Source of the DNA: Carnobacterium funditum DSM 5970
GTDB lineage: Bacteria; Bacillota; Bacilli; Lactobacillales; Carnobacteriaceae
Assembly: GCF_000744185.1 (NCBI RefSeq)
Contig: NZ_JQLL01000001.1
Coordinates: 186,001-250,000, forward strand
Direction: 5' to 3'
DNA length: 64,000 bases
The position numbers and the translations under genes are program-made. The stretch's first letter is position 1. Each line of letters opens with the position of its first letter. The notes below the pieces were generated by a model, which had not been told where the DNA came from, searched no databases, and was given only the letters and a program-made list of their open reading frames with translations. Shown piece by piece: positions 5,757 to 18,179 of this stretch.

Positions 5757-7092
5757 TAGTTTGAATTCTTGAGTAGCGGTGCTCTACTTAACCATTCGAC
5801 AAAGAAACCGGGGCAAACTAAGAGCTAGCAGCGCTCTAGTTCACATTTTCATAGGAATATGAAATAGAATCGTTAGCTAGAACGGCACTAGCTAACGAAT
5901 ACTGAAAGAATCCTCAATCAATTAGTCGCTAGCAGCGCTCTACCTCATAAAAGCCTGAAAAAGCGCGTTTGAATTCTTGAGTAGCGGTGCTCTACTTAAC
6001 CATACGACAAAGAAACCGGAGCGGGATAGGAGCTAGCAGCGCTCTAGTTCACACTTCCATAGGAATACAAAAAAGAATCGTTAGCCAGAGCGGCACTAGC
6101 TAACGAATACTGAAAGAATCCTCAATCAACTAGTCGCTAGCAGCGCTCTAGTTCACACTACCATAAGAATACAAAAAAGAATCGTTAGCTAGAACGGCAC
6201 TAGCTAACGAATACTGAAAGAATCCTCAATCAACTAGTCGCTAGCAGCGCTCTACCTCACATTTCCATAAGAATACAAAAAAGAATCGTTAGCCAGAGCG
6301 GCACTAGCTAACGAATACTGAAAGAATCCTCAATCAACTAGTCGCTAGCAGCGCTCTAGTTCACACTACCATAAGAATACAAAAAAGAATCGTTAGCTAG
6401 AACGGCACTAGCTAACGAATACTGAAAGAATCCTCAATCAACTAGTCGCTAGCAGCGCTCTACCTCACACTTCCATAAGAATACAAAAAAGAATCGTTAG
6501 CTAGAACGGCACTAGCTAACGAATACTGAAAGAGTCCTCAATCAATTAGTCGCTAGCAGCGCTGTACCTCATAAAAGGCTGGAAAAACGCGTTTGAATTC
6601 TTGAGTAGCGGTGCTCTACTTAACCATTCGACAAAGAAACCGGGGCAAACTAAGAGCTAGCAGCGTCATAGTTCACACTTCCATAAGAATACAAAAAAGA
6701 ATCGTTAGCTAGAACGGCACTAGCTAACGAATACTGAACGAGTCCTCAATCAATTAGTCGCTAGCAGCGTTCTACCTCATAAAAGGCTGGAAAAACGCAT
6801 TTGAATGGTGAACTAGCGGCGCTCTACTTAACCATTCGACAAAGAAACCGGGGTGAACTAAGAGCTAGCAGTGCTCTAGTTCACACTTCCATAAGAATAC
6901 AAAATAGAATCGTTAGCTAGAGCGGCACTAGCTAACGAATACTGAAAGAATCCTCAATCAATTAGTCGCTAGCAGCGTTCTAGTTCACACTTCCATAAGA
7001 ATACAAAATAGAATCGTTAGCCAGAACGGCACTAGCTAATGATTATTGAAAGAGTCCTCAACCAATTAGTCGCTAGCAGCGCTCTAACTAGT
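5757..7092. repeat. Array of 104-bp units with a palindrome every 52 bp
   Basis: Units starting GCTAGCAGCG lie at 5824, 5928, 6032, 6136, 6240, 6344, 6448, 6552, 6656, 6760, 6864 and 6968, exactly 104 bp apart, with partial units at both ends. Two versions share the length. Type A carries GTTAGCTAG-7 nt-CTAGCTAAC in its middle. Type B (5928, 6552, 6760 and the leading partial) carries AGTAG-7 nt-CTACT at the same place. Every unit start carries CTAG-CAGCGCT-CTAG. Palindrome centres therefore fall every 52 bp from 5780 to 7080, 26 in all. There are no unique spacers, so this is not a CRISPR array. It ends about 155 bases before the second NERD gene. Confidence 0.95.
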
Positions 7093-7248
7093 ATTGATAC
7101 CTAGGAATGGGTTTGCATTATGAAGTAGTTTGTTAGTTTATTGGATATTTTTCGAATTCGAAAAATTCACTGCTTTTATTTGAATAGAAAAACAATAAGG
7201 ATTGCGTATATTACTGAATAAGAAAGAAAATAAAAAGGGAGTGAGAGA

Positions 7249-8169
7249 ATGGCTTTTAAAGAGAGGGATAAACCTTTTAGGCTGCTGATGATGGAGTCTT
7301 TAGCACATAGAATGGACTTATCGAGAGAAGATCGTAGTAAGTATGCGAGCTGGGTCAAAGGGTATAATGGAGAAGTTGAGTTTGATTCTATAATGGAACA
7401 ATTGAAATGCGAGAATTTAGTTTTAAATGATTTGTATTTGAATGTGAGAGGGAAAAGGTTTCAAATTGACACATTGTTAATTACTGCAAAGAATCTTTAT
7501 ATCTATGAAGTGAAAAATTTTGCAGGTGAATATTATTACGAAAATGAAAAAATGTATTTTGGAAGAACTAAAAAAGAGGTGTTCGATCCACTCTATCAAA
7601 TCAATCATGCGGAGTCGGCATTGCGACAACTATTAGACCAAATGGGATACAATTTGGGCATCAAAAAGTTTATTGTTTTTGTGAACCGCAACTTTACTTT
7701 ATTTCAAGCACCACTAAATAGCGGGATGGTGTTACCAGGAATGTTAACCTCACACTTTTCAATGATTAATGACATCTCTGATAGGCTAAATCAGACCCAT
7801 TTCCGTTTTGCAAAAGAAATTAAACCAATGCATATGGAAGATTTTACTCTGCATAATGTGCCTTTTTATGAAGATAAATTGTTAAAGAAAGGCATCATTT
7901 GTTTTTATTGTGGTTCCTTCATAGACTGTTTTATCAACAATAGAACGTGTTTTTGTAAGTCCTGCAATAAAAAAGAATTGATTTCAAAAACCGTTATCCG
8001 TCATGCGCAAGAATACAAGCGATTATTTCCAGAGCAAAGAATTACGACCTCAGCTATTGCTAAATGGTGTGATCATCAGGTAGCGCCTAGTCGAATTAGG
8101 TATATTTTTAATCAGCAGCTAATAGCTAAAGGGACAGGTAGATGGAGGTATTACGAATTCAGCAGCTAG
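7249..8169 (+). CDS. NERD-domain / zinc-ribbon protein (paralogue 2)
   Basis: Predicted 306-residue paralogue of the protein at 1007-1888. A NERD domain spans about residues 38-150, with QID at 72-74 and EVK at 87-89 as candidate nuclease residues. Zinc-ribbon cysteines are at 218, 221, 236 and 239. The C-terminal ~50 residues (ITTSAIAKWCDHQ, then SRIRYIF) look like a helix-turn-helix. The ATG at 7249 follows AAAGGGAG with 7 bases spacing. It stands alone directly after the 104-bp array, just as its paralogue follows the 307-bp array. A DNA-binding or DNA-cleaving role acting on the palindromes is an inference from position only. Catalytic competence cannot be judged without a structural alignment. 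Confidence 0.82.
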   Translation: MAFKERDKPFRLLMMESLAHRMDLSREDRSKYASWVKGYNGEVEFDSIMEQLKCENLVLNDLYLNVRGKRFQIDTLLITAKNLYIYEVKNFAGEYYYENEKMYFGRTKKEVFDPLYQINHAESALRQLLDQMGYNLGIKKFIVFVNRNFTLFQAPLNSGMVLPGMLTSHFSMINDISDRLNQTHFRFAKEIKPMHMEDFTLHNVPFYEDKLLKKGIICFYCGSFIDCFINNRTCFCKSCNKKELISKTVIRHAQEYKRLFPEQRITTSAIAKWCDHQVAPSRIRYIFNQQLIAKGTGRWRYYEFSS

Positions 8170-16541: not shown

Positions 16542-18179
16542 ATGGGAATCAAGCAACTCCGAGAGGAAGAAAAAGGCAGTGGTTTAGTTTTAACATTAAT
16601 GGTGCTTTTGGTGTTGTCTGTCTTAGGTATTGCCATTGGAACTCTTACGATCGGTAGTTATCGATTGAGTGATGCTACTCGTGATGATACATCCGCTTAT
16701 TATGTGGCAGAAGCTGGAGCCGTTGCCGCTTATGAACAGATTCAGAGAGAAGTATTAAGTGCTTATAAAAACAATGAAACAGAAGGTGCTTTTTATAATC
16801 AGGTATCAACTATCCTTAGCTCAAAAAATGGTCAGTCGAGTATAAAATTTGATCAGCAATTAGGCAGCGAACCTACTGCAACAATCCGGACTGAAAAGGA
16901 AGACTCACAAAACTATAACATTCAGTCTACCGGAGAAATAGACGGAAAAGAGCGGACCGTTATGAAAAAAGTCACGGTGAATTGGGTTAATAAAAGTACT
17001 GGTGGGGGAGGAATGCCAAAACTTCCTGAAAATGCAGCTTTGTTAACGCAAGGTGGCATGGAATTGAGAAACGGTACTTTGGTAGGGGATTTACATACCA
17101 ATTCAGTATTAAAGGATTCCGTCAAAATTTCAGGAGGTAAGAATTCTAAAGGGGATACTTTGTATTATCCTAGTAGTACGACTGCTGAAAACTTAATCAA
17201 TAGAGAATACGATTGGAAGTGGATTAAAAATTATGTAGCTAGAGAAAAAAATATTGATTTTAAAGTTTATGAAAACTTGTTGAAACAAGTTAAAGTACCC
17301 ACTGATAATACGATAGACTTTAAAAAATTACCGGATAAAATAATTAAAAAAAATGAGAATGAACAGTATAAGGTTCAAGATAATGGGAATTTGTTTCTAA
17401 ACAATTATTTACTTAATACCTATAAGCTTGAGGTTTATGACAATATTTCTTTTAATAAGATAATAGTTGAGTCTGGAAAAAAGTTAACTATTGACCCTAT
17501 GGGAGGAAACCACACGATTTTAGTGAACGATTTATCAATTAGTTCAGGTGATATTGATATTGTTGGAAAAGGGACAATCACATTTTTAGTGAACAATTTA
17601 TCAATTAGTTCAGGGAGTCTTAATGTTGTAGAAGAAGGCAAAATTACATTTTTAGTGAATAATTTAATATTTACTTCAAGTAATCTCGATATTATTGGTG
17701 AAGGAATAATTAGATTGGTTGTAGCAAATACAATCAATTTTAATCAGAATTCATACATCAATGCCTCTGGAATAAGCAAACAATTCTTATTGATATTTAC
17801 AGGTCCTAATCCAAATTTTACGAATATTAACAAGATGAACGCTAATGTGATATCCATCGGAAATGAGAAACCAGTAGATCTCAATAATACCACTATAAAT
17901 GGCGTATTTCTGACGGATAACAAAGAAATTATTTTGTCAGGTGGCAACTGGAATAGACCTTCCAACGTAATACTTATTGCACCAAAATCAGCTGTCACTT
18001 TAACTGGAAGTTATCTTATGAACGGTACGGTTATTGCAGAAAAATTCAAAATGCTTGGTGATGCAAAACTAACTTATACAAAAATTGTCACGACCGGTTT
18101 CCCATTCGGCTCATCAGTTACTGTTACTGCTCCATCATCGGAAGACATTATAACCTCAGGAACAATCATTGAAGATTAG
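16542..18179 (+). CDS. PilX-like pilus protein with beta-solenoid repeats
   Basis: Predicted 545-residue protein. An N-terminal prepilin-like segment (EEEKGSGLVLTLMVLLVLS) and the AYYVAEAGA motif are typical of PilX/GspK-like minor pilins. From about residue 310 there are repeats of about 20-24 residues (VNDLSISSGDIDIVGKG, VNNLSISSGSLNVVEEG, VNNLIFTSSNLDIIGEG), then further short beta strands, as in right-handed beta-helix or polymer-forming domains. This large body suggests a tip or surface-exposed binding role. The start may be ATG 16542 or GTG 16533; neither ribosome site is strong. It directly follows the second pilin stop. Confidence 0.75.
   Translation: MGIKQLREEEKGSGLVLTLMVLLVLSVLGIAIGTLTIGSYRLSDATRDDTSAYYVAEAGAVAAYEQIQREVLSAYKNNETEGAFYNQVSTILSSKNGQSSIKFDQQLGSEPTATIRTEKEDSQNYNIQSTGEIDGKERTVMKKVTVNWVNKSTGGGGMPKLPENAALLTQGGMELRNGTLVGDLHTNSVLKDSVKISGGKNSKGDTLYYPSSTTAENLINREYDWKWIKNYVAREKNIDFKVYENLLKQVKVPTDNTIDFKKLPDKIIKKNENEQYKVQDNGNLFLNNYLLNTYKLEVYDNISFNKIIVESGKKLTIDPMGGNHTILVNDLSISSGDIDIVGKGTITFLVNNLSISSGSLNVVEEGKITFLVNNLIFTSSNLDIIGEGIIRLVVANTINFNQNSYINASGISKQFLLIFTGPNPNFTNINKMNANVISIGNEKPVDLNNTTINGVFLTDNKEIILSGGNWNRPSNVILIAPKSAVTLTGSYLMNGTVIAEKFKMLGDAKLTYTKIVTTGFPFGSSVTVTAPSSEDIITSGTIIED

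Follow-up and report, generated by a model that had tools for sequence, protein, structure and literature searches.

The window analysed here, a stretch of 64,000 nucleotides from Carnobacterium funditum DSM 5970, contains 26 dyad-symmetric sites, one every 52 bp, upstream of a gene for a NERD-domain protein. Arrays of the same step adjoin relatives of this gene in other genomes, and bases of the sites change together with a residue in the wing of the protein's winged helix. Judged from these sequence correlations, a nuclease-like protein and an evenly spaced row of its own binding sites very probably form a partnership that is widespread in Bacillus-type bacteria.

A row of 26 dyad sites in the window

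A preliminary description of this DNA had reported 26 palindromes spaced 52 bp apart. Reading the sequence at every 52nd position, tandem repeat detection with TRF and self-matching all confirm this: dyad centres fall at 5780 and then each 52 bp up to 7080, with the 26 sites in register (Table 1). The sites mostly have the form (C/G)TAG-N7-CTA(C/G). An exact TAG-N7-CTA is present at 21 of the 26, the remaining five deviating by one core base each, as against eight occurrences in the remainder of the 64 kb. Over offsets 4-13, the mean number of complementary pairs per site is 7.3 out of 10 (range 5-10). Self-match of the array rises from 0.48 at lag 52 through 0.71 at 104 to 0.83 at 208, above a background of 0.25-0.28 at lags 49-51 and 53-55, and TRF returns periods of 208 (5760-6982), 104 (5824-7086) and 52 (6863-7021). 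The 104-bp unit proposed earlier is thus borne out by TRF and self-match as a sub-period; the full unit is 208 bp and holds four sites. Because this unit comprises four site types, adjacent 52-bp units are unlike in sequence yet hold the same step, and the earlier claim that spacing is kept while sequence differs applies within the array. Type C sites recur at 104- or 208-bp steps to 7028, some copies having one change, and type D is the weakest dyad in the array, with 5-7 of 10 pairs. A protein-coding repeat was ruled out as the identity of the array, which has no ORF of at least 50 aa within it.

Table 1. Coordinates of the array, its site types and the neighbouring gene (positions in the window)
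Feature	Position	Strand	Description
Tandem array of 26 dyad sites	5760..7090	.	52-bp step; long unit 208 bp, sub-unit 104 bp
Site type A	centre 5780, 5769..5791	.	TTGAGTAG-N7-CTACTTAA; repeated at 5988, 6612; variant at 6820
Site type B	centre 5832, 5822..5842	.	GAGCTAG-N7-CTAGTTC; repeated at 6040, 6872; variant at 6664
Site type C	centre 5884, 5870..5898	.	TCGTTAGCTAG-N7-CTAGCTAACGA; perfect 11-bp arms
Site type D	centre 5936, 5923..5949	.	TAGTCGCTAG-N7-CTA, then CCTCA or GTTCA; recurs to 7080
Spacer, array edge to NERD start codon	7093..7248	+	
306-aa NERD protein	7249..8169	+	PD-(D/E)XK-type core, Cys4 stretch, winged helix

The window array lies upstream of the NERD gene, and DNA similarity to a 76% identical gene in the congener G002 begins at 7123, approximately 30 bp past the array edge. 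A second array of the same repeat is located about 123 kb away, without a NERD gene (G000:C1:68963-69957; L012 4964-5954); it has 18 exact sites in steps of 52 bp, with one step of 103 bp. When 14 genomes were searched, the window repeat was absent outside the window genome. An empty site for the second array could not be defined: its flanks lie 264 bp apart in G001, but 3.1 kb are missing there, which exceeds the array. By eye, this second array adjoins apparent gene fragments. The window also contains a 66-bp repeat in three copies (17518-17716), apparently unrelated to the phased array.

The adjacent NERD protein

The protein encoded beside the array matches the Pfam NERD family (PF08378) with 60.5 bits, well over the cut-off of 22.1 (E 2.6e-16), and it retains the nuclease-type residues. 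In a Pfam scan up to E 0.01, NERD was the sole family and no Rep family was detected. Conservation was assessed in an alignment of 89 sequences (A2), consisting of the two window proteins, 15 from the 40 relatives and 72 from the 80 loci of the wider search described below, eight of these 80 being omitted for stops within the given range. Within the NERD core (residues ~3-178), G41, D74 and E87 are invariant, and E42 and K89 are conserved at 90% or more. The four cysteines C218, C221, C236 and C239 are likewise invariant. We read this Cys4 stretch as a zinc ribbon, which is a reading only, because the sequence matches of residues 218-239 to RNA polymerase zinc ribbons are non-significant (E 0.13-0.65).

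A structure predicted from the 89 sequences has a mean pLDDT of 94.7 and three parts. In the model, residues 3-178 show structural similarity to nucleases of the PD-(D/E)XK type (Can2, Z 8.4, rmsd 5.0 over 136; a McrBC chain, Z 7.8, rmsd 3.3 over 122), and residues 241-306 to winged helices (PefI, Z 6.5, rmsd 2.6 over 64; DIP2311, Z 5.8, rmsd 2.0 over 58), the Z values being modest and the fold by itself showing no function. The third helix of the winged helix (~241-306) spans 280-290, and R298 is in the wing. A broad Foldseek search with the model gave nothing at E 0.001 or better.

Two NERD genes in the window genome exceed the Pfam cut-off; both are inside the window, and each adjoins tandem arrays. 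The paralogue, NERD1 (1-921 and 914-1888; G000:C1:184795-186921), comes after an array of 6.9 units of 307 bp that has wide palindromes and no 52-bp phasing, and its frame ends before the wing of the winged helix. A relative of NERD1 in G004 (65% identical) has a 251-bp array on the opposite side of the gene; TRF finds no array at a relative in G001 (67% identical).

Arrays of the same step accompany the gene family

The preliminary description named no known element of this kind. The array is not singular and has many relatives. An initial scan with a single protein found none of these, and an alignment query later did. A protein search of 98 genomes, the window genome counted, gave matches in 29 at E<=0.001, with up to 11 per genome, part of them fragments. 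From the fetched matches, the best 40 were used, L020 and L021 at contig ends being passed over. For a wider search, the query was an alignment of 17 members (A1), and the best 80 of 502 loci were taken by the protein criterion only; their names are those of Bacillaceae and relatives.

At 99 of the resulting 121 loci (window included), a tandem repeat of score >= 100 is found within 800 bp of the gene, and at 91 an array with a period of 50-53 bp or a multiple, the loci being partly non-independent (L066 is the window's NERD1, and L053 overlaps L049). Arrays of this class are present at 75 of the 80 wider-search loci, compared to 16 of the 41 loci of the window genome and its relatives from the 98-genome search, where 17 loci have no strong tandem repeat. 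Among the five misses in the 80, the contig offers little or no DNA downstream at L092, L108 and L148, L106 contains an inner stop, and L100 is simply a miss. Four extra loci from the 98-genome search divide evenly into two with 51-52-bp arrays (L036, L037) and two without (L032, L035).

The step is concentrated near the gene. Up to 1.5 kb from it (337 kb of DNA), 94 of 109 arrays are of 51-52 bp or multiples (91 plus three multiples); further off (679 kb), 7 of 19 belong to this class, and two of these seven adjoin another NERD gene. In three complete genomes, a 52-bp array is found at all eight strong family members and at none of eight weaker NERD matches. A phylum sample contained the family in 4 of 398 genomes at E<=1e-60, the window genome among them, and in the other three genomes a 52-bp array is present at 8/8 loci.

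Between loci, the array sequences are largely unrelated. Drifting spacing in relatives had been named beforehand as an outcome that would speak against phasing; across these sequences, the step stays at 52 (51) bp, a result in favour of phasing. Of 391 steps between dyad centres, measured in 63 of 95 arrays, 342 are 52 bp, 44 are 51 bp, four are 53 bp and one is 54 bp, in a count that let each step depart from the TRF period by no more than 2 bp and would miss bigger drifts. The best 10-bp dyad window has 9 or 10 pairs in 38 of 95 arrays, compared to 29 of 1900 shuffled units. In the 44 downstream arrays with clear dyads, the common site is GTCCTTCAT-N7-ATGAAGGAC, with T at +5 in 89% and C at +12 in 80%, or more fully, on the gene's strand, TTTT-GTCCTTCAT-N7-ATGAAGGACA-TTT; site logos used 50 of the 95 arrays. 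The window sites are the CTA variety of this common site. Eight long-unit arrays (226-344 bp) were inspected; a dyad spacing of 52 or 51.5 bp was seen in four of them and not in the other four. At one locus (L075; G084:C21), the NERD gene is flanked by two copies of one series of differing palindromes, with steps of 46-52, 87-88 and 103 bp.

The dyads might also be read as a string of RNA hairpins, as the preliminary description had allowed, with the transcribed array acting as RNA. In type III toxin-antitoxin systems, repeats directly upstream of the toxin gene act as structured RNA. Arrays are downstream only at 78 of 99 loci. In the window, the array is upstream of its gene, the predicted fold of its plus strand forms hairpins with 7-nt loops (a fold made without shuffle control), and some arms covary within arrays, with 45 further pair types compared to 7-15 in slid controls. 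Wobble events in the arms are balanced, however, at 100 G.T and 92 A.C, and therefore give no sign of selection on an RNA strand, tolerance of wobble being apparent on neither. An earlier count of 204 palindromes on the gene's strand gave 9 G.T and 26 A.C, unevenly by array (five with more G.T, nine with more A.C), and would at most indicate the opposite strand. Moreover, the 52-nt step is common to unrelated sequences without evident RNA reason, and Rfam has no match in the window at gathering scores. We rejected RNA hairpins as the main explanation, chiefly on the wobble balance, and consider them very improbable.

Other NERD sub-families have units of two and four helical turns

B-DNA has ~10.4 bp per turn. 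At 20 loci of weaker NERD relatives (L245-L264), units are 40-42 bp in 10, 20-21 bp in four and 51-52 bp in two. Eight of the 20 loci of this sub-family A had already been examined, and five of them had such units, which prompted the test; whole-turn units are found at 10 of the remaining 12. Among 200 genomes of the class, a search at E 1e-20 with one sub-family A protein revealed a further NERD sub-family in 29. Of its 30 loci read (L265-L294), 18 have units of 20-21 bp and three of 40-42 bp, five have others only and four have no repeat. For units of 20-21 bp, the TRF score required was lowered to 60, and this length is also seen in 3 of the 19 arrays far from the gene. The largest excess of flank self-match over shuffles in this sub-family is at 21, 42 and 63. 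In the structure predicted for this sub-family, the parts follow one another as in the window protein, the winged helix spanning ~262-332 (CadC, Z 8.0, rmsd 3.1 over 69). The unit lengths of 20-21, 40-42 and 52 bp are two, four and five turns at ~10.4 bp. Repeats of 41 and 39 bp were also seen past the 52-bp arrays of two loci (L128 6726-6879 and L101 6640-6840, respectively).

Site bases follow a residue of the wing

Among the pairs tested in 53 loci with well-defined sites, the two highest values of mutual information connect residue 298, located in the wing, with site positions +6 (z 19.5) and +4 (z 14.7). Gln298 is found with A at +4 in 29 of 30 loci and Arg298 with C in 15 of 19, counts that leave out the weaker arrays. 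Contacts of Gln with A, and of Arg with G opposite C, are classical. On a tree made from residues 1-240 only, changes of residue 298 and +6 coincide on nine branches (2.0 expected, p 2e-6), and changes of 298 and +4, more weakly, on six (1.6 expected, p 0.001). Scanning 2520 pairs on the tree at p<1e-3 gave 15 of 500 for the winged helix, 7 of 520 for residues 181-244 and 4 of 1500 for residues 1-180, an enrichment that may be partly artefactual because the winged-helix residues were outside the tree. By p value, the top pair is residue 54 (NERD domain) with +7, followed by 298/+6.

At 13 new loci, outside those behind the rule, Gln298 occurs with A at +4 in 4/4, Arg with C in 1/2 and residues other than Gln with A in 1/9, eight of the 13 having dyads below the training threshold and one (L222) being a near copy of a training locus. 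At the training threshold, the new loci give Gln with A in 3/3 and others with A in 0/2. A pairing of Lys281 with +10 is only a hint, because it holds in 23 of 26 training loci and in 5 of 10 new ones. Residue 282 as a determinant of +9 looked good by eye and was dropped at p 0.17.

Since residue 298 tracks a site base, the NERD protein very probably binds the sites of its neighbouring array, and does so through its winged helix; physical binding appears highly likely as far as covariation can indicate it. Together with the step of 52 (51) bp over unrelated arrays and the whole-turn sub-families, this covariation lends strong support to the earlier proposal of helical phasing and protein binding; the centromere, nucleoid or decoy roles suggested with it are hypothetical. 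The covariation also bears on the idea of a passive satellite, in which unequal recombination alone would have amplified a chance unit and the spacing would be without function. Tandem arrays do expand and contract, and those seen here range from 1.9 to 20.9 units (95 arrays). Against this idea, arrays of largely unrelated sequence agree in step, dyad and core bases and are linked to the same gene family, and site bases follow protein residues; we regard it as the least credible of the explanations considered, with hardly any probability left to it.

The array as a probable platform for the NERD protein

We propose that the adjacently encoded NERD protein has in this array its cognate multi-site platform, and that platform and phased assembly together are a probable explanation of the data. 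A symmetric NERD protein, presumably a dimer, would bind each dyad site with one winged helix per half-site. Because the sites are five helical turns apart, successive bound proteins would share one face of the DNA, where they could assemble cooperatively as Rep proteins do on plasmid iterons; for this same-face cooperativity we consider the chances good. The assembly would be expected to hold, position or restrain a DNA-cutting enzyme, because the NERD domain keeps PD-(D/E)XK nuclease residues, and nuclease activity of the protein in vivo seems rather likely. Gene and array would then constitute a self-contained two-part locus.

Excerpts of PMC4980987 describe iterons as rows of sites bound by winged-helix proteins, with a cooperativity that needs the right helix face. 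NERD arrays are similarly regular rows of sites at whole helical turns; that a winged-helix protein binds them is suggested by covariation. They differ from iterons in having no plasmid match, no Rep protein, dyad sites and a nuclease-type domain, and in number, the window having 26 sites where the plasmids named in those excerpts have 2-7 iterons each.

The same iteron data, including the loss of cooperativity upon a half-turn shift (PMC4980987, same excerpts), would suit a function for the host, with the phased array as an architectural, segregation-like or control site of the chromosome (for nucleoid, partition or autoregulation) and the NERD protein as its host-serving binder. The window array, being upstream of the gene, could act on its promoter, and the lack of plasmid or phage matches at E 1e-5 is also in keeping with this. 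Such a host function is nevertheless unlikely in view of the patchy presence of the family (29/98 genomes at E<=0.001; 4/398 phylum genomes at E<=1e-60), of the multiple matches in a genome, as many as 11 including fragments, whose half-sites differ, and of the conserved nuclease residues. In addition, repeats are mainly downstream of the gene (78 downstream, 16 upstream and 5 both, at 99 loci), and autoregulation is ill-suited because of this position.

Gene neighbours and mobile DNA

ParABS and TubRC systems have a partner NTPase gene beside the centromere array, and BREX/Pgl and Mokosh are multi-gene loci with kinase, helicase or methylase partners. No neighbour gene recurs at a fixed place over the 121 NERD loci, in flanks of 5.5 kb upstream plus 1.2 kb downstream at 40 loci and up to 5 kb at 80. 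The largest neighbour cluster, by eye ABC transporter parts, is found at 25 of the 121 loci, its 26 members being scattered in position, with nine on the gene's strand; the second-largest is found at nine. An operon partner for the NERD gene was rejected on account of this small share and scatter.

Compared to 72,556 plasmids and 50,697 phages, the NERD protein gave no match at E 1e-5. Under the same threshold, the window array DNA had no match in the plasmid and phage collections, nor did the array DNA of another locus (L124, ATG class, from Bacillus sp. V3-13) in the phages. Mobile cargo was rejected, since neither the protein nor the array DNA has plasmid or phage relatives at E 1e-5. The window locus sits on a 2.33-Mb chromosomal contig.

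These surveys also bear on defence or addiction, where the array would store or restrain a toxic nuclease that is freed on phage infection, or would be a DNA antidote keeping a DNA-cutting toxin in check. NERD domains are found in defence proteins; PADLOC gave weak matches to MkoA and PglW (E 0.0018-0.049) over 80-113 residues of the NERD part, and a figure legend in PMC10910872 places NERD among putative CRISPR auxiliary genes. Yet neither of the two NERD proteins scanned with PADLOC had a whole-protein match, no neighbour holds a fixed recurring place, and copies on plasmids or phages were not found at E 1e-5, so that we give this alternative little weight.

Dispersed arrays and comparison with known repeat systems

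Arrays are also found away from the gene. Heyndrickxia coagulans 36D1 has one gene of the family, and its array DNA matches many places in the chromosome; all 14 further places picked from these matches carry 52- or 53-bp arrays. According to an ORF map, the 14 lie between larger ORFs, with convergent, co-directional or divergent neighbours. The dispersed arrays fall into at least three site classes, and phase is lost where arrays of differing class abut, with steps of 73 and 44 bp. Arrays of the ATG class are present even though the single gene has Arg298. In Neobacillus SuZ13, 5/5 further places fetched have arrays. The position of the gene varies too: the 76% identical gene of the congener G002 is >1.1 Mb from the relatives of the window locus's flanking genes, and the position of the NERD locus has changed between congeners.

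Because like arrays also occur elsewhere in the chromosome, the gene-array pair may behave as a dispersing, probably selfish repeat system similar to REP/RAYT, with another enzyme. As described in parts of PMC3733652, a REPtron has a gene in the chromosome bordered by its own kind of palindromic repeat, which is also dispersed extragenically, and species with several REP families have repeat-specific REPtrons. Repeats both flanking the gene and dispersed are likewise found here, at the 14 H. coagulans places and in the one further array of the window genome. RAYTs retain a catalytic tyrosine and HUH motif, and the repeats beside their genes are REP monomers, dimers or other inverted repeats (PMC3733652, same parts), whereas the enzyme here is of the NERD/PD-(D/E)XK type with a winged helix, not a Y1/HUH tyrosine transposase, and NERD genes are flanked by whole arrays. 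Unlike REP sequences, NERD arrays have a step of 52 bp (or 20-21, 40-42) across species. We favour the view that they are REP/RAYT-like in behaviour and not in membership, the defining tyrosine transposase being absent. That the function is selfish or dispersing, as opposed to serving the host, we put at slightly under an even chance. With a little more reserve still, we suggest a class of elements in the chromosomes of Bacilli, probably selfish, whose nuclease, made up of NERD domain, zinc ribbon and winged helix, would generate and spread satellite DNA of its own. Each sub-family would have dyad arrays of exactly two, four or five turns, with sites and winged-helix residues changing together and each paralogue in a genome having a private array.

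Regular palindrome arrays as such are not new: in Pseudomonas fluorescens SBW25, REP sequences recur evenly in tandem arrays, at steps of 112 and 72 bp (excerpts of PMC3116915). What appears undescribed is that the partner is a NERD protein, that whole-turn steps are shared by different species and that protein and site covary. Among the matches listed in a search of open-access literature, nothing linked NERD proteins to phased arrays or to a specificity-setting winged helix. According to an excerpt of a 2022 paper (PMC9040797), its authors knew of no earlier study of what NERD does in bacteria; the present data link the family to a concrete DNA partner. The recognition rule from residue 298 to base +4 is directly testable, arrays at two, four and five turns offer a natural series for same-face protein assembly, and the system is a possible bacterial analogue of satellite DNA that evolves along with its binder.

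Like CRISPR arrays, NERD arrays are regular palindromic repeats beside a nuclease-like gene; unlike them, they repeat the entire 52-bp unit and have no unique spacers. Our guess is that phased arrays may explain orphan repeat rows, and possibly false CRISPR calls, in Bacilli. By the same guess, such miscalls could underlie the listing of NERD as CRISPR-auxiliary in the figure legend of PMC10910872.

Turnover of arrays is visible at one H. coagulans place, between menB and menE by eye, where strain 36D1 has 524 bp with an array. With flanks 95% identical, strain DSM 1 has 335 bp there and no TRF array, although other half-sites are visible and self-match has a weak peak at 52 (0.38 vs 0.24-0.31). 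Weizmannia acidilactici has 146 bp and no array at this place. Elsewhere in H. coagulans 36D1 (L206 2921-4143), an element resembling the IS3 type, judged by eye and with two ORFs, is situated between two parts of a 52-bp array.
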